From positions 186,001-250,000 of the forward strand of contig NZ_JAFREN010000004.1 of NCBI RefSeq assembly GCF_017377505.1: a stretch of DNA of 64,000 nucleotides, written 5' to 3'. How positions within the stretch are numbered: position 1 is the first letter of the stretch; the number at the start of each line of letters is the position of its first letter. Positions 5,974 to 45,445 of this stretch are shown in pieces. Below the pieces are notes generated by a model. It was not told the DNA's origin. It searched no databases and saw only the letters and a program-made list of their open reading frames with translations. The position numbers and the translations under genes were made by a program. This stretch comes from Enterococcus sp. DIV0212c. GTDB taxonomy: Bacteria; Bacillota; Bacilli; Lactobacillales; Enterococcaceae.

Positions 5974-8571
5974 TTAACCATTGTAGGCATCAATGATGAT
6001 TTGTTTCAATTCACTGATCAATGGTTCTTTTGGATTTGCTGTAGTACATTGATCTTCATAAGCAAGTTCTGCCATGTGATCAACTGTTGAATCAAGAATT
6101 TCTTGTGTAACACCTTGTGCTTTCAAGTTCATATCGATTCCAACAGATACACCTAAATCATAAACAGCTGTTGCTAATGCATCTACTAGCTCTGCTGTAT
6201 TTTTTCCTTTAAGACCTAAGAATTTCGCAATATCAGCGTAATCTGTGTCGGCACGGAAGTAGTCATATTTAGGGAACATAGCATGTTTTGAAGGATCTTT
6301 GGCATTGTAACGGATGATATGCGGTAATAAAATCGCATTAGTACGTCCGTGAGGAATCCCGTATTCTCCACCAATTTTATGTGCTACTGAGTGACAAATT
6401 CCTAAGAATGCGTTGGCAAAAGCCATACCAGCCATTGTTGATGCGTTATGCATTTTTTCACGACTTTCTGCATCTGGACGTTTCACTGAGTTTTCTAAAT
6501 GTTCAAAGACTAATTTAATTGCTTGTAAACTTAATCCACGCGTGTAATCAGAAGCCATCACCGAAACGTAAGACTCAATTGCATGTGTCAGTACATCCAT
6601 ACCAGTATCAGCCGTTACAGAAGCTGGAACTGACATCACAAATTGAGGATCGATGATCGCAACATCTGGAGTCAATGCGTAATCAGCTAATGGGTATTTT
6701 ACATGTGTATCGCTATCTGTAATAACCGCAAATGGTGTTACTTCTGAACCTGTACCTGATGTTGTTGGAATACATACAAATTGTGTTTTAACTGCTTTTT
6801 CAATTTTGTACGTACGTTTACGGATATCTAAGAATTTTTGTTTAGCTCCAAAGAATTCTGTATCTGGGTGTTCATAGAACATCCACATGCCTTTAGCTGC
6901 GTCCATTGCAGATCCGCCACCTAAAGCGATGATTGTATCTGGTTCAAAATCAACCATAACTTTTGTTCCAGCGTAAACTGTATTTGTAGAAGGATTAGGT
7001 TCTACAGCTGAGAATACTTCGATTTGAACGTCGTTTTTACGTTTTTGTAATTCTTTACGAACTGTATCAGCATAACCAAATTGAACCATTCCTGGATCAC
7101 AGACGATCATCACACGTTCAACATTTTCCATTTTTTGTAGATATTGTAATGAATTTTTTTCAAAGAAAATTTTTGGCGGTAATTTAAACCATTGCATATT
7201 ATTTCTCCGTTTCGCTACAGTTTTGACATTGATCAAGTTGACAGCAGATACGTTTTTAGACACTGAGTTTTTACCGTAAGATCCGCAACCTAATGTTAAT
7301 GAAGGAAGCATTTCGTTATAGATATTACCGATTCCGCCTTCAGCAGATGGAGAGTTTACCAAGATACGGCAAGCTTTCATGCGTAAACCAAATTTTACTT
7401 GTAGATCTTCATCTTCTGTATGGATCACAGCTGTATGTCCTAAGCCGCCTAATTCAAGCATTGCTTCACATAAATCAAAAGCATGTTCTGAATTTTTTGC
7501 TTTCATCATTGCTAAAACTGGAGATAATTTTTCACGTGAAAGTGGATATTCAGCTCCTGCACCTTCAAGTTCAGCAATTAGAATTTTTGTTCCTTTTGGT
7601 ACTTTGATACCAGCTAATTCTGCGATATGTTCAGCAGAATAACCAACGATTGCTGGATTAACGGCATATTTACCTTCATTCATAACAGCATCTTCTAATT
7701 TTTGTAATTCGTTCGGTTTAACGAAGTAGACTTGGTGTGCTTCAAATTCAGCTTTTACTGCTGCATATACTTCTTTATCTACGATCACGGCTTGTTCAGA
7801 AGCGCAGATCATACCGTTATCGAATGATTTAGAAACGATCAAGTCATTGACTGCACGTTTGATTTTGGCTGTTTTTTCAATATATGAAGGAACGTTACCT
7901 GGCCCAACGCCTAAAGCTGGTTTACCTGTTGAATAGGCTGATTTCACCATAGCACTACCACCAGTAGCTAAAACGATTGCGATTCCAGGATGGTTCATCA
8001 AGCCTGAAGTTGCTTCTAATGAAGGTTGTTCGATCCATTGTACACAGTTTTCTGGAGCGCCTGCTTTGATGGCTGCATCACGAACGATACGAGCAGCTTC
8101 TGCAGAACATTTTTGCGCACTTGGATGGAATGCGAAAACGATTGGGTTACGTGTTTTAATTGAGATCAACGCTTTAAAGATTGTTGTTGATGTTGGATTT
8201 GTTGTTGGTGTAACACCACAAACCACACCCACTGGTTCTGCGATTTCAATTAATCCTGTTTGGTCATCTTTATTGATAACGCCTACTGTTTTATCATGTT
8301 TGATACTGTTCCAAATATATTCTGAAGCGTACATATTTTTGATTGCTTTATCTTCATAAATTCCACGGCCAGTTTCTTCTACAGCCATTTTTGCTAGAGG
8401 CATATGTTGATCTAACGCAGCCATTGCCATTTGGTGCACAATGTGGTCAACTTTTTCTTGATCGAAGTCTTCCATTTCTTTTAAAGCAACATTTGCTTTT
8501 TTTGCTAACTCGTCGATCATTGCTGATACATCAGTCATTTTGGTATCTTCTTTCTTCATTGTTTTAGCCAT
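5974..8571 (-). CDS. adhE: Bifunctional acetaldehyde-CoA/alcohol dehydrogenase
   Basis: 865 residues. It reduces acetyl-CoA to acetaldehyde and then ethanol with NADH, the redox-balancing branch of mixed-acid fermentation; the protein forms spirosome filaments in other bacteria. The N-terminal aldehyde dehydrogenase half (about 1-440) has the catalytic cysteine at residue 256 in FDNGMICASEQ. A linker with KTVAKRRNNMQWFKLP leads to the iron-dependent alcohol dehydrogenase half (about 455-865), where GGGSAMDAAKGMW binds NAD and HSVAHKIGG and PHGRTN carry the metal histidines. AGGAGG is 6 bases from the ATG. Two Rex-like operators lie upstream, which fits induction when NADH is high. It is monocistronic with its own terminator. 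Confidence 0.97.
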   Translation of the reverse strand: MAKTMKKEDTKMTDVSAMIDELAKKANVALKEMEDFDQEKVDHIVHQMAMAALDQHMPLAKMAVEETGRGIYEDKAIKNMYASEYIWNSIKHDKTVGVINKDDQTGLIEIAEPVGVVCGVTPTTNPTSTTIFKALISIKTRNPIVFAFHPSAQKCSAEAARIVRDAAIKAGAPENCVQWIEQPSLEATSGLMNHPGIAIVLATGGSAMVKSAYSTGKPALGVGPGNVPSYIEKTAKIKRAVNDLIVSKSFDNGMICASEQAVIVDKEVYAAVKAEFEAHQVYFVKPNELQKLEDAVMNEGKYAVNPAIVGYSAEHIAELAGIKVPKGTKILIAELEGAGAEYPLSREKLSPVLAMMKAKNSEHAFDLCEAMLELGGLGHTAVIHTEDEDLQVKFGLRMKACRILVNSPSAEGGIGNIYNEMLPSLTLGCGSYGKNSVSKNVSAVNLINVKTVAKRRNNMQWFKLPPKIFFEKNSLQYLQKMENVERVMIVCDPGMVQFGYADTVRKELQKRKNDVQIEVFSAVEPNPSTNTVYAGTKVMVDFEPDTIIALGGGSAMDAAKGMWMFYEHPDTEFFGAKQKFLDIRKRTYKIEKAVKTQFVCIPTTSGTGSEVTPFAVITDSDTHVKYPLADYALTPDVAIIDPQFVMSVPASVTADTGMDVLTHAIESYVSVMASDYTRGLSLQAIKLVFEHLENSVKRPDAESREKMHNASTMAGMAFANAFLGICHSVAHKIGGEYGIPHGRTNAILLPHIIRYNAKDPSKHAMFPKYDYFRADTDYADIAKFLGLKGKNTAELVDALATAVYDLGVSVGIDMNLKAQGVTQEILDSTVDHMAELAYEDQCTTANPKEPLISELKQIIIDAYNG

Positions 8572-39057: not shown

Positions 39058-39437
39058 GAAGGAAGGAGGAAAACATCAGCTGTATTGAAGAATTTCTCGA
39101 AGCATGAAATGAGTAAACACAAAATTGTTACCAGAACACCATTCACCTTTCATTAAGCTATATGTGTAGAGTAAAAAATCATAAAAACATCTTTAAAAAA
39201 TAGTGAATTCGTGTAAAAATTGGAAATTAGAACAAGAAAAACACGTATAAAGATAGTTTGATTAAAAAAATTTAAGATAAGAAAAGTAGAAAATGTAATG
39301 AAAACAAAATTTGGTTTATGAACAAGAAATTCAACTAATTACTTTGCATGTATAACGAAAAGTAAAAAAAAAATCATTCAATACACTGATTCCTTCCAGC
39401 AACAAGAGCCAAGCTAATCGAGAAGCTTGGCTTTTTT
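39058..39437 (+). ncRNA. Candidate CcpA-controlled small RNA
   Basis: A transcript beginning near 39058 and ending at the terminator 39407-39437 would be about 380 bases. It contains no frame over 20 codons with a normal start. A strong AGGAGG at 39064-39069 is followed by ATC and a ten-codon frame (ISCIEEFLEA), and one base after its TGA starts a 15-codon frame (MSKHKIVTRTPFTFH); these might be leader peptides. Whether it is an RNA regulator, a peptide messenger or both is open. Confidence 0.5.
39407..39437 (+). terminator. Terminator of the candidate small RNA
   Basis: AGCCAAGCT (39407-39415) pairs perfectly with AGCTTGGCT (39424-39432), followed by a T-run on the plus strand. Confidence 0.85.
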
Positions 39438-39531
39438 GTTTGCGTGATATTTGTAAGTGAAAGTAAGATATGGTATATTGACTATGCGCTTTTTATTTAA
39501 TACATAAATTAGACTATTGGAGGGATTTGCA

Positions 39532-39786
39532 TTGCCAAAAAAGAAGAACTCATCTTTTGAGAGTTCCATTCACGTCTACAGAGCCATGAAACGCATGACC
39601 CAACAGGAACTTGCTGACAAGGTGGGAGTATCTAGACAAACAATCATTCAGTTAGAAAGAAATAGGTACAATCCTTCCCTTTTACTGGCTCATGACATAG
39701 CAGACGTTTTCGAAGTGCCGATTGAACAAATCTTCACTTTCAAAAAATTGACAGAAGCCGAGCAAACAAGCGAAGAAACCGACTAA
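39532..39786 (+). CDS. XRE-family helix-turn-helix regulator
   Basis: 84 residues from the TTG at 39532. GGAGGG (39519-39524) lies 7 bases before this codon, so the earlier TTG at 39517 that overlaps the site is rejected. The helix-turn-helix is [39 protein letters not shown] (about residues 22-60), a full XRE (Cro/CI) domain, with an IFTFKKL tail. It is followed 19 bases later by a three-helix membrane protein, a pairing common for small XRE/DUF2178-type units in Gram-positive genomes. It is convergent with the lanthipeptide genes; a link to them is not shown. Confidence 0.85.
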
Positions 39787-39805
39787 CGGAAGGAAAGGAT
39801 AAATT

Positions 39806-40144
39806 ATGACCGAATCACTTAAATCTTTTTTTGATAACTTGCCTACAAATCATTGGTCTAGTATAGTAATCGCTATACTATCAGTTATCTTCATTGTGTA
39901 CTCAATTTATTTTTACTTTAGCAAAGAAGGTAAAGATGAACGTGGAAAGAAAATTATTTCTACAGCAAGTTTTATCTCATTTATCATTACAGTAGTTTTG
40001 ATATCTATCTTAAATAACAATGCAGCGATTTTTGAGATTGTTTCAAAAAATGAACTGTCTTTCAATTGGATACTGAATTTCTTTGTATTGCTTATTTCAG
40101 GTGTTGAAGCAATCGGGATCTTAATCCTTAGAAAAATAAAATAA
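39806..40144 (+). CDS. Small three-helix membrane protein (DUF2178-like)
   Basis: 112 residues. Three hydrophobic segments (about 19-37, 50-68, 88-107) surround FSKEGKDERGKKII, the DER motif that characterises DUF2178 membrane proteins. Downstream of the XRE regulator with AAGGAAAGG before the ATG, so both are probably one transcript. Function is unknown; such proteins may bind or sequester the regulator. It ends just before the shared terminator at 40143-40178. Confidence 0.75.
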   Translation: MTESLKSFFDNLPTNHWSSIVIAILSVIFIVYSIYFYFSKEGKDERGKKIISTASFISFIITVVLISILNNNAAIFEIVSKNELSFNWILNFFVLLISGVEAIGILILRKIK

Positions 40145-40178
40145 AAAAAAGACCTCTCAAAAGGAGGTCTTTTTTTTT
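40143..40178. terminator. Convergent terminator between the XRE unit and lanA
   Basis: GACCTC (40151-40156) pairs with GAGGTC (40164-40169), flanked by runs of eight A's and nine T's. It also overlaps the lanA stop codon at 40177-40179. Confidence 0.85.
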
Positions 40179-40347
40179 AGAAACAAATCAACTTAGTCCA
40201 TCCACCAAGTGAATTTGGTGCGATTTCTTCAAGTTTGTTAAACATTTCTTCAGTTTCTTCATTTCTTTCGAAAGATGCACCTACGAATTTGTCTAATTTT
40301 GTTGTGTCTGTCTTTGTTTCCATTTTTTCAATTGATAATTTTCTCAT
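40177..40347 (-). CDS. Class II lanthipeptide precursor (candidate LanA)
   Basis: A 56-residue frame, too small to be noticed by length filters. GGGGGAG lies 10 bases before the ATG and a consensus promoter at 40381-40409. The leader-like part (MRKLSIEKMETKTDTTKLDKF, then FVGASFERNEETEEMFNKLEE) is acidic and helical and resembles mersacidin-type leaders (xVGxSFEELSxEEM). A double glycine (SLGG, residues 46-49) is followed by only WTKLICF. Thr51 and Cys55 could form a single methyllanthionine ring; Ser46 lies in the leader end. The next gene upstream is a LanM, so it is the likely substrate. No other precursor was found. Without the LanM the sequence alone would not prove this function. Confidence 0.7.
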   Translation of the reverse strand: MRKLSIEKMETKTDTTKLDKFVGASFERNEETEEMFNKLEEIAPNSLGGWTKLICF

Positions 40348-40380
40348 GATATTATTTCTCCCCCTTGCATTAATAACTAG

Positions 40381-40409
40381 ATTATAAAACGTTCTTCTGG
40401 ATAAGTAAA
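40381..40409 (-). promoter_or_regulatory. Promoter of the lanthipeptide precursor gene
   Basis: On the minus strand TTTACT (40404-40409), a 17-base spacer and a perfect TATAAT (40381-40386). This gives lanA its own transcript independent of lanM, allowing many copies of the precursor per enzyme. Confidence 0.75.
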
Positions 40410-40431
40410 GTTCTTTTTTCAGATTGTGTCA

Positions 40432-43329
40432 CTAAATAAATAACAAGGATCGAACAACGGACGAATCGTAACCCCTCAACATTTGATAACCTGGGCCTGC
40501 CAAACCACAAAAAAGACTGATAGGGATATTAGTTGGATCTGATTTTAATTTCAAAACGTCATTTTTTAATAAAATATTATTATTTAAATAATCATCTAGA
40601 TAACCAAAGTTACCATGACACAAACAATCATCCTCAACTATTTTATTGTTTACTCTTTCTAGCGTCTCCTCACACAAAGGTATATCCAACAGATGACAAA
40701 CTTTTTTAATCCCAAGTATCCCACGACACCAGGAAGCATTCGTTATTTCTTCAGTTTCAAGATTTTTTTCGAATTTTTCTTGATACCATTTTATTTTAGT
40801 CTTCACTAGTGGTTCATTAAGCACTTGATCGGCTTTGCTCAATCCATAAAGAACACCGGCATAGCCATGAGCAAAACTATTATCTTTCATTTCCTGACAT
40901 GTCAGTGTACGTGCATAATGCATAAGTAAGTCATATGCTTCATCATTGTGATTACTTTGGTATACAGCTGCTAAAATCGCCAATAAACTAGCTTTCCCAT
41001 ATAACCATTCATTCGCCTGATTCTCCGCTGGTATTTGAATAATTTTCAATTTTTGTAAGCTACTATTTATATACGATTGATATTTTTCATCCTTAAGCAA
41101 TCTTGTTACATAAAACGCAACAGTTAGACGCATCCCTTCGTCAAAAAAGGCACTTTCATAATGTTCTTTTTCTCCATCTGTTAGGAAAATTTCTTGTTCC
41201 AATAAATCAATAACTACTTCGTAACTTTCTTTAGGAACAAAATGATTCAAATAAACCAAGAATAAGTATACCCCAGCACTGCCTGCATAAAGATCCGTAT
41301 TCGGATAAACAATCTCAATATCCCCATCGTCATCTGGGAAAACTGAAACCCAGTCAATCTCACCTAACTCTTGATTCACTGTAATTTGATCAATGATTTT
41401 ATCCCCAATATCTGCCGCTTTTTGTAACAATGGATGTTCAATCGAATTATTTTTCACAGGAATTGAGATTTCCTGCGTAGTATATTCTAAGGTGCCTAAA
41501 CTTTGTTTCAATAAAAGATAAGAAAAGTTGCTTGTTTTCTCTGTGATCTGCTCCATATGTTCAATAGTCGCTTGCAAGGGCGTATTTTTTAACAGATGCA
41601 TAAGTTCTTGACCATTGATAGATACATTTGTTGAAAAAGTATTTGCTGTAACTAAAGGAATATCATGGTCTAACATCGCTTGAACTTCAAAAGGGATCAA
41701 CGCTTCCGGGATGATTTTATTCGCCCATAAATTTTCAATAACCTTTTCACGTTCAATATAATTAGACATACAATCGGTGTGTAATGTAAAATTCAATAAA
41801 TTTCCGTATTCTTGTGTGTCTCTATAAATCAATCGAATCGTGGTATCTGCAAATAATTCTTTGACTTTCTCAATAAATTCATATTTATTTTTTAATAAAA
41901 GCTGGTTCATTTCTTTAAATGCCTTCTGGATCACATCACGGTAATCTTGGTAATCAACTTCTTTACCTGCCAAACACGGAATATTTTGGGCGCCATCCAT
42001 ATAGGCTTCTTCTAATTGAAAAGCGATGTCACTGGAGCGATCATTTCTCAACCTTCTGACTTTTTTAGGTAATTTTTGTTTGGTGCCAGATAATGCGTCC
42101 ATTTCAAGCTCACGTTTCCCTTGTTTTTTTTGCGGAAGTAATCCCGAAATGATCACAGATTGTTTGTCTATGCGTGTTTGCCTAGATAACGGCTTGGACA
42201 ATTCAAACATTTCAGGACGAATGAGCGTCTCTACATCAATCAGTACAGGACGTGAGCCATTGGCAATTAAATTTTCCATATGCAAATCTGTCGCACCTAA
42301 CCAATAAACAAGTGCTAAAAGGTGCCCATAATTTTGATAAAAATCAGTGACTTCTGTTTCTTTGGTACACTCTTTATACATAACTTTTTCTTCGATCGTA
42401 AAGGTTGGCTGAACAATTCGCTTGATTTTATAAAAAGACAACTCGGGATTCAATCCTTCGACATACGTTAACAAATCATTGAAACGCTCACCTATTTCCA
42501 ATTGCTTAAATTTAAAAATCAACGACTGTTCTTGCACTTGAAACTGAATAACAGTTCTTCCACGTTCATGACTATCCCCTTGTCCTAACTTTATCTGGGT
42601 TAAATCAAGCGGCTTGGAAACAGAAAAAGTAGTTGCTAATTGCTCAGTAACATCATTTAATGAGCCAAAAAAAGCTTCAATCACTTCACAAGCAAATGTT
42701 AGTCTAACTGCGAGAACTCTGGCAAGTGTCGGATATTCTCCATAAAAAAGATATGTCCGTTGTTTATCCCCTAAAAATTCTTTAATATATTTAGTGAATT
42801 CTTCCTCTTTTGATTCAGCTTGCAGCTGATATTCCTCAATCATCTGATGGACGTCCCAAACTAAACTCTTTTGTGCAAGAAAAAAGAATTCATCAGATAA
42901 TTGCTCGATCAGTTCAGCGATCACTTTTTCTGATAACTGAATCAGCGGAAATTTTTTTAAAAGATTTCGAATATGATTCTCGTAATAATCTAAGTGAAAA
43001 CGCAACGCAGCTGATAATCTCATTTCTTTTATTGGAACTTCTGTAGTAAACAGAGCTCTATGTAATTGGAACCAGTCACTTTTTTCAATTGTCGGTAATA
43101 ATAACTGTGCTCGTTCTTCAGTAAACGGCAACAACGCTCGACTGAAAGTTTGACTATCTAGATGCTTATGCCGAAACATTTTATCGTAATCAGCAGTTGT
43201 TAATAAGCTTTTACGATCTTGCCATTGTTTAAAATACATATACTCATCATTCTCTACGGACACATCTCTCCAACAGTGAATTCTTTCTGAGATTGTTGCA
43301 GCATAACTATACGTTAATTCCTCAATCAT
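40432..43329 (-). CDS. lanM: Class II lanthipeptide synthetase LanM
   Basis: 965 residues, typical LanM length. The N-terminal dehydratase half carries ATDLHMENLI (347-355) and the PVLIDVETLI segment (361-370), the kinase-like catalytic residues D348, H350, N353, D365 and E367 that phosphorylate Ser/Thr and eliminate the phosphate. The C-terminal cyclase half (about 650-965) has the zinc ligands C868 (SWCRG), C904 and H905 (CLCHG), and SFAHGYAG. So both steps of (methyl)lanthionine formation look intact. The only precursor found is the 56-residue gene 84 bases downstream. No LanT peptidase-transporter, no protease, no immunity ABC and no two-component system lie nearby. The start is supported by AAAGGAGAG upstream. 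Confidence 0.93.
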   Translation of the reverse strand: MIEELTYSYAATISERIHCWRDVSVENDEYMYFKQWQDRKSLLTTADYDKMFRHKHLDSQTFSRALLPFTEERAQLLLPTIEKSDWFQLHRALFTTEVPIKEMRLSAALRFHLDYYENHIRNLLKKFPLIQLSEKVIAELIEQLSDEFFFLAQKSLVWDVHQMIEEYQLQAESKEEEFTKYIKEFLGDKQRTYLFYGEYPTLARVLAVRLTFACEVIEAFFGSLNDVTEQLATTFSVSKPLDLTQIKLGQGDSHERGRTVIQFQVQEQSLIFKFKQLEIGERFNDLLTYVEGLNPELSFYKIKRIVQPTFTIEEKVMYKECTKETEVTDFYQNYGHLLALVYWLGATDLHMENLIANGSRPVLIDVETLIRPEMFELSKPLSRQTRIDKQSVIISGLLPQKKQGKRELEMDALSGTKQKLPKKVRRLRNDRSSDIAFQLEEAYMDGAQNIPCLAGKEVDYQDYRDVIQKAFKEMNQLLLKNKYEFIEKVKELFADTTIRLIYRDTQEYGNLLNFTLHTDCMSNYIEREKVIENLWANKIIPEALIPFEVQAMLDHDIPLVTANTFSTNVSINGQELMHLLKNTPLQATIEHMEQITEKTSNFSYLLLKQSLGTLEYTTQEISIPVKNNSIEHPLLQKAADIGDKIIDQITVNQELGEIDWVSVFPDDDGDIEIVYPNTDLYAGSAGVYLFLVYLNHFVPKESYEVVIDLLEQEIFLTDGEKEHYESAFFDEGMRLTVAFYVTRLLKDEKYQSYINSSLQKLKIIQIPAENQANEWLYGKASLLAILAAVYQSNHNDEAYDLLMHYARTLTCQEMKDNSFAHGYAGVLYGLSKADQVLNEPLVKTKIKWYQEKFEKNLETEEITNASWCRGILGIKKVCHLLDIPLCEETLERVNNKIVEDDCLCHGNFGYLDDYLNNNILLKNDVLKLKSDPTNIPISLFCGLAGPGYQMLRGYDSSVVRSLLFI

Positions 43330-43812
43330 GGTTCTCTCTCCTTTGACATTATTCCTACCCTTTATAATAATAAAAAAATAGTATAAATACTATGTTAATT
43401 TTATTTTCTTAGTATTTTACAGAAAACTAGACCAACTATTTTTGTCTTACTTGAGCTAATTTCCTCTATTGAACTACTTTTAATCTGGCTTATTTCCTCA
43501 GATTCATTCCATAGACAATTAAACTTTCCATAATTTTGGCTTCCCAAAAAGGCAAACGTTTCCATTTTTTGATAAAATAGTTACATATCACACAAAGAAT
43601 TATACATAACAGTCCTATCGTTCTATTATCATGGCTGGTATCAGACTTTATCAAACAAAAATAACACTGGTTTGTGAACTTTTAGTTATTTCAGCCATTT
43701 AATAGAAAAAAACAGCTATTTTGTAAGCATTTATTTTGTGAATTTTTTACTTTTCGTATATTATATGTATTAAGAGGTATGTACCAATATTTTCGAAAGG
43801 ATATGAAAAAAT
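43330..43812. other. Intergenic region upstream of lanM
   Basis: 480 bases, A/T rich. Holds the candidate lanM promoter (43370-43398) with a palindrome, and at the other end the spx promoter (TATTAT near 43760). A 54-codon frame on the minus strand (43401-43565) has no ribosome site and was not annotated. Confidence 0.6.
43370..43398 (-). promoter_or_regulatory. Candidate lanM promoter containing a palindromic operator
   Basis: TTAACA (43393-43398), a 17-base spacer and TTTTAT (43370-43375). The palindrome ATAGTATAAATACTAT (43378-43393) fills the spacer, a good place for a repressor. The -10 box is weak, so the promoter call is tentative. Confidence 0.5.
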
Positions 43813-44211
43813 ATGTTAAAATTATATACAACAAATAGCTGTACATCATGTAGAAAAGCACGGAAATGGCTGATCGATCATGATATTCCATTTGAAGAAA
43901 AGAATTTTGGCACTACTCCCATTACATTAGACGAACTAAAAAATATATTAATCCTTACAGAAGAAGGTACGGAAGATATCATTTCGATCCGTTCCAAAGT
44001 CTTCCAAAAATTAGATACAGATATTAACGAACTTCCCTTGCATGTATTATTGGAGTTGGTCAAAGATAATCCTGGATTACTTCGCCGTCCAATCATGATC
44101 GATGAAAAAAGATTACAAATTGGTTTCAATGAAGATGAAATTCGTTGTTTCTTACCAAGATCAGTACGTAAAAGAGAATTATCACAAACATTACTTTTAA
44201 GCGGTTTATAA
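43813..44211 (+). CDS. spx: Spx-family redox regulator
   Basis: 132 residues, the usual length. Spx binds the RNA polymerase alpha subunit and redirects transcription under thiol stress. The redox switch CTSC is at residues 10-14 in TTNSCTSCRKARKW, and the family landmarks LLRRPIMIDEKRLQIGFNEDEIRCFLPR are complete. Enterococci usually have several Spx paralogues; whether this is the main one cannot be told. It has its own promoter region and a terminator at 44246-44319. Confidence 0.93.
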   Translation: MLKLYTTNSCTSCRKARKWLIDHDIPFEEKNFGTTPITLDELKNILILTEEGTEDIISIRSKVFQKLDTDINELPLHVLLELVKDNPGLLRRPIMIDEKRLQIGFNEDEIRCFLPRSVRKRELSQTLLLSGL

Positions 44212-44467: not shown

Positions 44468-45445
44468 ATGAAAAGAGATACTCGTATAGATTTTTTGAGA
44501 ATGTCAGCTATATTCTTAATTATGTTAGCACACGTTTCTCCACCAGTTACAATTTTTATAGCTCGCACTTTTGATGTTCCTCTCATGGCTTTTTTATTAG
44601 GGATGTCATTTTACTTGAGTAAAAAAAGGGGAAACTACTTTGTCTATGTGGCAAAAAGGTTCAAACGTTTGGTTATTCCGGCTTGGAAGTTCCTAACTTT
44701 ATTTTTCATAGTCATGTGGATTTTGTTCATTTTTTCACCAAACCCTTTTCCATATCCACTCAGCACAATCTACACTTCTTACAATCTTACCGGAGGAATT
44801 GGTTATGTATGGGTAATCGGCGTATTTTTTGTAATTGCCATTTTTTCACCTATAATTTATGCTTTTTCAAAAAAATTTAAGCGTTTTGTTCAAAGACAAG
44901 TTGTTTTGCTGCTTTTGTTATTTTTTCAAAGTTTACTTTGTAAAACAAACATAGTAGCCTCTCAAAATCCACTGGTCTATCAGTTACCTATTTATACAGG
45001 CTATGCAATTATGTGTTTAGCAGGTATTTGGGCTGTACAGCAAAATAAAGAAAAAAATATTTTTTGGGGTTTTAGCTATCTCCTTTTTTTCATAATACTT
45101 TCTTTCACTAATAGTTTTATTTCACTACAAGAAGCTAAATATCCCCCTCAGCTTTATTATTTAGTTTACGGTATAAGCGTTTCGACCTTACTTTTTGCGC
45201 TAGTGAGCAATGACACTATTCGCAAGTTCTGTGACCAAAAATGGATTGTTTGGCTCTCCTCGCACTCTCTGGAAATTTATTATTGGCATATAACAGTTAT
45301 AATCTTTTTTAGTTATTATTTTACTCAAATAGATTGGAAAATGAAATATTTTATTGTAGCCATAACTGCTATATTTTTTACTGCAATCCAACCAAATATA
45401 ACTTCTTATTTTTTACAAAAAAAATCCAAAAAATTAACTTCATGA
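44468..45445 (+). CDS. Acyltransferase 3 family membrane protein
   Basis: 325 residues with about ten membrane helices. The start RDTRIDFLRMSAIFLIMLAHVSPP carries the conserved arginine and histidine of the acyltransferase 3 family, which moves acyl groups across the membrane to sugars, teichoic acids or peptidoglycan. HSLEIYYWHITVIIF near the end is the family's C-terminal motif. No sugar-polymer genes flank it, so the acceptor is unknown. GGGGA lies 5-6 bases before the ATG. It is rich in A/T, more so than queA next to it, which may point to acquisition. Confidence 0.85.
   Translation: MKRDTRIDFLRMSAIFLIMLAHVSPPVTIFIARTFDVPLMAFLLGMSFYLSKKRGNYFVYVAKRFKRLVIPAWKFLTLFFIVMWILFIFSPNPFPYPLSTIYTSYNLTGGIGYVWVIGVFFVIAIFSPIIYAFSKKFKRFVQRQVVLLLLLFFQSLLCKTNIVASQNPLVYQLPIYTGYAIMCLAGIWAVQQNKEKNIFWGFSYLLFFIILSFTNSFISLQEAKYPPQLYYLVYGISVSTLLFALVSNDTIRKFCDQKWIVWLSSHSLEIYYWHITVIIFFSYYFTQIDWKMKYFIVAITAIFFTAIQPNITSYFLQKKSKKLTS

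Follow-up and report, generated by a model that had tools for sequence, protein, structure and literature searches.

Within a 64,000-nucleotide stretch of DNA from Enterococcus sp. DIV0212c, referred to here as the window, we analysed a small class II lanthipeptide locus in which a synthetase gene, lanM, and a precursor gene, lanA, face a membrane-protein gene, mem, and an XRE-type regulator gene, xre. On the minus strand, lanM (40432..43329) encodes a protein of 965 amino acids and is followed, after a spacer of 84 bp, by lanA (40177..40347, minus strand), which encodes a 56-residue precursor, MRKLSIEKMETKTDTTKLDKFVGASFERNEETEEMFNKLEEIAPNSLGGWTKLICF. Convergent with these genes, the xre-mem pair (39517-40144, plus strand) consists of xre (39517..39786), encoding an 89-amino-acid helix-turn-helix (HTH) regulator that matches PF01381, and mem (39806..40144), encoding 112 residues with three predicted membrane helices; 19 bp separate the two. 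The 3' ends of lanA and mem meet at a bidirectional hairpin (40143..40177, not assigned to a strand; z -2.8), which terminates both genes alike. A first-pass annotation, made from the sequence alone, had described a precursor-like gene after lanM, with XRE, membrane-protein, Spx and acyltransferase genes nearby and no LanT, LanP or LanFEG alongside. The open reading frames and domain searches agree with this description, and none of the latter three adjoins lanM-lanA. Across the genus, the variable core end of the precursor and mem are exchanged together, and we propose that they may act as a peptide signal and its membrane partner.

LanM scored 504.6 bits against the TIGR03897 (lanti_2_LanM) model, whose cut-off is 304, and contains both a PF13575 (DUF4135 dehydratase) and a PF05147 (LanC-like cyclase) domain. 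CylM (PDB 5dzt) aligns to LanM residues 12-964 (1e-79), and through this alignment we picked the active residues, whose catalytic and zinc-binding roles we take to be those familiar from the family. K273, K275, D348, H350, N353, D365, E367, R499, R503 and T505 are invariant in all 20 orthologues, and H821, W867, C868, C904 and H905 in all 19 orthologues that reach these positions; the row of genome G007 is short because its lanM is split. The remaining 19 of 20 orthologous lanM genes are open without inner stops, and dN/dS was 0.09-0.18 across the 9 pairs computed. By its domains, its score above the cut-off and its residues, LanM is a class II lanthipeptide synthetase, as the first-pass annotation of an intact 965-residue enzyme had it. 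The possibility of an inactive LanM like CA_C0082 was rejected, since the dehydratase and zinc residues are all there.

Our comparison covered 60 relatives, with 22 genus genomes counting the window's own. Orthologous LanM was present in 20 of the 22 (own included), with 42-77% identity to the window's protein in the others; of the two genomes lacking it, G014 carries other LanMs only (at most 32% identity) and G021 carries no LanM. A LanM search of 105 family genomes (E <= 1e-20) matched three genomes outside the genus, at no more than 25% identity. A profile of the lanA precursor picked out these same 20 genomes among the 22, and in 398 genomes drawn from the class it gave 2 matches, both in this genus. 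Named relatives include E. quebecensis, E. plantarum, E. caccae, E. ureasiticus, E. termitis, E. ureilyticus and E. crotali. The locus of LanM and precursor is a genus trait, near-fixed in this Enterococcus sample.

The precursor had no match among Pfam or NCBIfam models, and NCBI-named homologues of both the precursor and Mem are labelled as hypothetical proteins. Because lanA adjoins orthologous lanM at all 20 loci and 14 of its residues are invariant in the alignment, we rejected the idea of a chance open reading frame. The same 20 loci bear out the earlier proposal that the two genes belong together, the small gene lying beside the orthologous LanM in each of them, and the refuting case named there, another conserved precursor next to LanM homologues, did not overturn the pairing.

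The last ten residues of lanA contain exactly one Ser/Thr and one Cys at all 20 loci, arranged as [S/T]-x-x-[I/V]-C, and the i,i+4 Ser/Thr-Cys pattern recurs in 33 of 36 database homologues (exceptions P0025, P0032 and P0036). One of these, P0025 from Enterococcus sp. AZ126, has a near-identical leader with the core end AGWTRFIGPCR, in which Thr and Cys are six apart; it is either a new type or a frameshifted end. In LanM chemistry, a dehydrated Ser/Thr and a Cys are joined into lanthionine or methyllanthionine. The single pair at this spacing therefore predicts one five-residue (methyl)lanthionine ring. For the window, with cleavage assumed after Gly49, the leader part would span 40201..40347 (minus strand) and the core W50-F56 (WTKLICF) 40180..40200 (minus strand), with a predicted thioether between Thr51 and Cys55; GG directly precedes the Trp in 12 of 20 precursors. 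The predicted product is a monocyclic (methyl)lanthionine peptide of about 7-9 residues. An engineered CTFAL mersacidin core indicates that a LanM is able to close a ring within five residues; that core was engineered, whereas the window's core of similar scale would be natural (PMC9486960).

The leader differs from those of ordinary class II precursors. Precursors of the genus's LanM-LanT clusters are of the kind GKSFEELTPEEMNNVQG or IIGQSFEELSKKEMEAMQG, and the VGASFER stretch in the lanA leader is common to these canonical leaders ([VI]G.SFE), whereas their EL..EM..G half, found in LanT-exported precursors, is missing. A profile comparison of the leader with the canonical ones recovered a 12-residue stretch alone, with a probability of 10% and weak statistics. 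Class II leaders carry an (E/D-8)(L/M-7) motif (PMC7268733), which the window's leader lacks: positions -8 and -7 are I and A in its precursor, and I and V in that of G001.

Mem has the distribution of orthologous LanM, being present in those 20 of the 22 genus genomes, with two matches outside the genus, both near 5e-5, and distant relatives in gut Clostridia. A Mem 67% identical (P0054) is filed under the Gram-negative Erwinia sp. CPCC 100877, where contamination or mislabelling seems likely. At the equivalent place in G021, G023 and E. faecalis (L089), XRE is present without mem, lanA, lanM or spx, and in G014, G022 and G034 queA and the ATPase lie there without XRE. Since XRE stays where lanM and mem are absent, xre is the older neighbour, and mem comes and goes with lanA-lanM. 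XRE and mem as one old pair were thus rejected, and the XRE/membrane pair of the first-pass annotation splits up, as XRE is also found without lanM and mem tracks lanM and the core. For the same reasons its statement that no immunity gene is present is probably wrong, mem being swapped with the core and co-occurring with lanM. In the alignment of 18 of the 20 Mem sequences, the first half, including the loop KEGKDERGKKI, is conserved and the second half is variable. Three hydrophobic stretches are compatible with three membrane helices, and a model built with 18 sequences is all helical (mean pLDDT 82.4). Against PF09946 (DUF2178), 4 of the 18 members gave weak matches (best E 0.0014), and precomputed matches exist for P0045 and P0049.

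The history of the core was then compared with that of its surroundings by Mantel tests, trees and window counts over the 20 loci, in which the broken genes (mem in G005 and G010, lanM in G007) are represented by an open piece only, and 19 rows were available in two lanM windows of the short-window count and in one of the exact-string count. LanM follows the flank proteins (Mantel r 0.96). The core does not correlate with LanM (r -0.07, p 0.66) but does so with mem (r 0.36, p 0.001), and r is 0.49 once flank DNA is taken into account. Without the divergent G004, G012 and G016, the values were 0.90 for LanM-flank, -0.21 for core-LanM and 0.48 for core-mem, with mem against flank at 0.09 (p 0.23). 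Seven core types were set by eye, with G020 grouped with G000, G006 and G019 despite sharing the core end of G003 and G009; these types need 6 changes on the mem tree, which is the minimum, and 12 on the flank and LanM trees. Counted in short windows, the halves of mem take 7 and 6 changes and the leader 8, against 11-13 for ATPase, Kup, queA, LanM and XRE. The exact-string count, which like the Mantel tests uses strings and no by-eye types, has 8 states and a minimum of 7 changes; it gave 7 for mem, 10 for the leader, 12 for the flank and 13 each for LanM and XRE. Among 200 shuffles, none was as low for mem, against 3 for the flank, 22 for LanM and 19 for XRE. An approximately unbiased (AU) test, whose groups were also chosen after looking at the data, rejected the clade G000/G006/G019/G020 with p 0.0004 for LanM and p 0.002 for flank DNA; for mem, it rejected the grouping G001+G017 (p 6e-6). 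The core and mem are therefore of joint descent.

The sister species G001 and G017 place this exchange on the DNA. In 60-bp bins, their identity is 88-100% in lanM and the spacer and 93-95% in the leader, drops to 62-82% from the core through mem, and returns to 98-100% further out; the divergent stretch starts at the leader-core junction and stops near mem codon 14. The dS values, computed for 9 locus pairs, are 1.18 for mem and 0.55 for lanA in this pair, against 0.15 for lanM, 0.21 for ATPase, 0.18 for Kup and 0 for XRE, and in all 8 pairs of the same type dS is lower for mem than for lanM. We read this as a recombining block of about 0.4 kb comprising the core, the terminator and most of mem. 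Across loci, the 3' ends of lanA and mem lie about 30-200 bp apart, and because the variable parts of both genes adjoin there, a single short recombination event could exchange peptide and partner at once. In the source-given names, three core types fall under E. rotai (P0002, P0004, P0008) and two under E. termitis (P0005, P0006), which suggests core variation within species. Variants of peptide and partner are thus co-inherited against the species tree, as in a pherotype system, and linkage alone could explain this as well.

For export, the first-pass annotation had proposed a genome-wide look for a peptidase-containing transporter. Two Peptidase_C39 matches do exist in the own genome, on contigs C8 and C10, and the window's contig, C34, has none. 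G006, which has LanM and precursor, gave no Peptidase_C39 match at E <= 0.001, in line with the earlier view that export and maturation are supplied elsewhere. Dependence on the other LanM-LanT cluster of a genome was rejected, as 4 of the 20 genomes (G003, G006, G009 and G020) are without a second LanM match. With the EL..EM..G half missing from the leader and no C39 match in G006, a general exporter is likely. EcsB-type permeases occur in 22 of 22 genus genomes and, being also present in the two without orthologous LanM, do not discriminate. We take PptAB and EcsAB to be one family. Short pheromones of E. faecalis and streptococci are exported by PptAB (PMC5167397).

On these grounds we infer ring formation, cleavage, export, recognition and signalling. 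LanM would dehydrate the lone core Ser/Thr and couple it to the lone Cys at i+4; the window's product would be W-[T-K-L-I-C]-F, possibly preceded by Gly. The leader would have retained the synthetase-type stretch (VGASFER) and lost the LanT-type half, so that release of the product might fall to a general peptidase and an equally general exporter of peptides, with the EcsAB/PptAB type as candidate. Mem, tail to tail with lanA, would be the cognate membrane partner, in our reading a receptor that hands the signal on to the XRE encoded with it and not just an immunity protein. A single short recombination would exchange peptide and partner together and so create pherotype-like groups, whereas LanM, most of the leader and XRE would remain with the species. 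That the locus makes a LanM-produced ring peptide with Mem as its partner, be it for a signal or a toxin, we consider quite probable. The narrower proposal, a transporter-free class II lanthipeptide with Mem as signal receptor and polymorphic like the agr and com pherotypes, stands in our judgement just short of an even chance. Only tentatively, and with considerable doubt, do we extend it to a genus-wide Enterococcus signalling system, in which a natural monocyclic lanthipeptide pheromone of 7-9 residues acts through a Mem receptor that controls XRE, with at least seven swapped signal groups and a LanM that also serves remote precursors.

Lanthipeptides are frequently antibacterial, and the peptide could instead be a narrow-spectrum bacteriocin with Mem as its dedicated immunity protein, in a toxin-immunity cassette that the joint exchange of core and mem and their shared genome occurrence would suit equally well. 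We regard this as unlikely, though a serious rival. Two genomes have a broken mem together with open lanA and lanM, G005 through a frame break and G010 through an inner TAG, which is easier to accept for a receptor than for a needed immunity protein; a peptide of 7-9 residues with one ring is small for a lantibiotic; and the locus is near-fixed in the genus without patchiness. We favour a signal over a bacteriocin. It is improbable, in our view, that core and mem are mere linked neighbours, the peptide being intracellular or directed at a distant partner and mem belonging functionally to XRE. The short distance between the lanA and mem ends, which one recombination tract spans, the pairing of one core end with two Mem classes, the clostridial relatives of Mem and the common occurrence in Firmicutes of membrane genes near small XRE genes all speak for it. 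Yet XRE, only 19 bp from mem, takes 12-13 core-type changes on its tree, and mem is gone wherever lanM is gone, with XRE remaining in G021, G023 and E. faecalis. Decay of a full lantibiotic cluster would explain the missing lanT, lanP and lanFEG and the split lanM of G007, but the 19 open orthologues, the low lanM dN/dS and the 19 compared loci that share the window's arrangement make it very improbable.

Several observations weigh against Mem as the receptor of a signal. Neighbouring genes can swap jointly without interacting, and the core end WTRLICF is paired with two Mem classes (G020 versus G003 and G009). For G001/G017, queA dS (0.54) is level with that of lanA, so recombination is not limited to the cassette, and XRE dS is low in every computed pair, so that the XRE-mem border rests on the tree count. 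The breaks of mem in G005 and G010 also show that loss of Mem occurs. A fold search of the PDB with the Mem model gave no match (best E 4.0), and matches of 14 of 18 members to DUF4418 (best 6.6e-4) leave its Pfam assignments weak and inconsistent. There is no two-component system at the locus, a contact or functional link between Mem and XRE is itself something that we infer, and no exporter or protease for the lanA product was identified.

Canonical LanM-LanT clusters (cytolysin CylM type; L051, L052) share the LanM fold, the active residues and the [VI]G.SFE leader stretch with this locus, which differs in having no LanT, LanP or LanFEG, no EL..EM..G half and a single, tiny predicted ring. 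In Bacillus subtilis, SdpC/SdpI/SdpR comprise a small regulator adjoining a membrane protein for both immunity to and sensing of a peptide; the layout is alike, but the families differ, the window's regulator being of XRE type and its peptide a predicted lanthipeptide. CA_C0082 of Clostridium acetobutylicum also belongs to the LanM family, is encoded apart from any ordinary lantibiotic cluster and has a link to peptide signalling, but it lacks the dehydratase and zinc residues and lies beside agr, whereas the window's LanM has these residues and an adjacent precursor (PMC10301443). The agr and ComQXPA pherotypes also have a polymorphic small peptide with signal and receptor variants in one block (PMC4408185, PMC10482373); here, a predicted LanM thioether would replace the thiolactone or isoprenyl group, and a three-helix partner of 112 residues the histidine kinase. 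AgrB-type protease and AgrC/AgrA are not among the neighbour genes, the only part of the genome searched for agr. No description of the lanM-lanA-mem locus turned up in the searched literature, which covered few subscription papers or preprints. If the proposal is true, it would extend the chemistries known from polymorphic peptide communication or from self-recognition by a thioether-ring peptide, comparable to Agr peptides but closed by a thioether and sensed through a membrane protein of three helices, and would exemplify a lanthipeptide functioning without its own transporter. At least seven types of core-Mem pair occur naturally and could be mixed and matched.

Around these genes, the window's gene order recurs at each of the 19 loci compared, with queA on one side and a P-type ATPase and Kup on the other. 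Upstream of lanM, the palindrome ATAGTAT-TT-ATACTAT (43378..43393) is a candidate operator by its likeness among loci; among the rows compared, similar copies occur in G001, G008 and G010 and none in G006 or G004. Spx (43813-44211), divergent to lanM in most loci, had no match in G004, G012 and G016 (3 of 19 compared loci) or at the E. faecalis locus, and the acyltransferase gene (44468-45445) had none in the 19 compared loci, so neither is a fixed part of the locus. About 80 bp before xre, a conserved hairpin with a T run (39407-39437) looks like a terminator. An Rfam scan of the window gave no match, and a plasmid search with the locus DNA returned 8 records that match the XRE or Spx stretch only.

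Remote precursors with the same leader lie beside a LysR gene and hisC: one in G013, two in G017, and one open and one split in G001. They are located at L090:7266-7436 (minus strand), L091:7651-7833 and 7901-8092 (plus strand) and L103:2800-2991 (plus strand), with no LanM within the 15 kb read. Their cores differ (GVVFTKRPICW, GVIFTKSPFCR and NPVTATTILTAVTITMIKRCK), and they look like possible in-trans substrates of LanM. One LanM may likewise act on precursors encoded elsewhere in the prochlorosin/ProcM system, from which the present one differs in its few remote precursors (3 of 22 genomes), with no Nif11 leaders seen (PMC10783134).

Other LanM clusters were also observed in the genus. On the own contig C8, L051:6108-11646 (minus strand) is an ordinary class II cluster in which a C39 LanT is accompanied by a LanM of roughly 1030 residues and by a precursor rich in Cys that matches PF16934; LanM-LanT of this kind is found repeatedly in the genus. 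G013 has a third type of LanM at L052:2669-16555, which shares 33% identity with that of the window and lies with LanT and tandem short precursors; its surroundings, with names assigned by eye, include genes that look agr-like or two-component and an open reading frame resembling a membrane peptidase.

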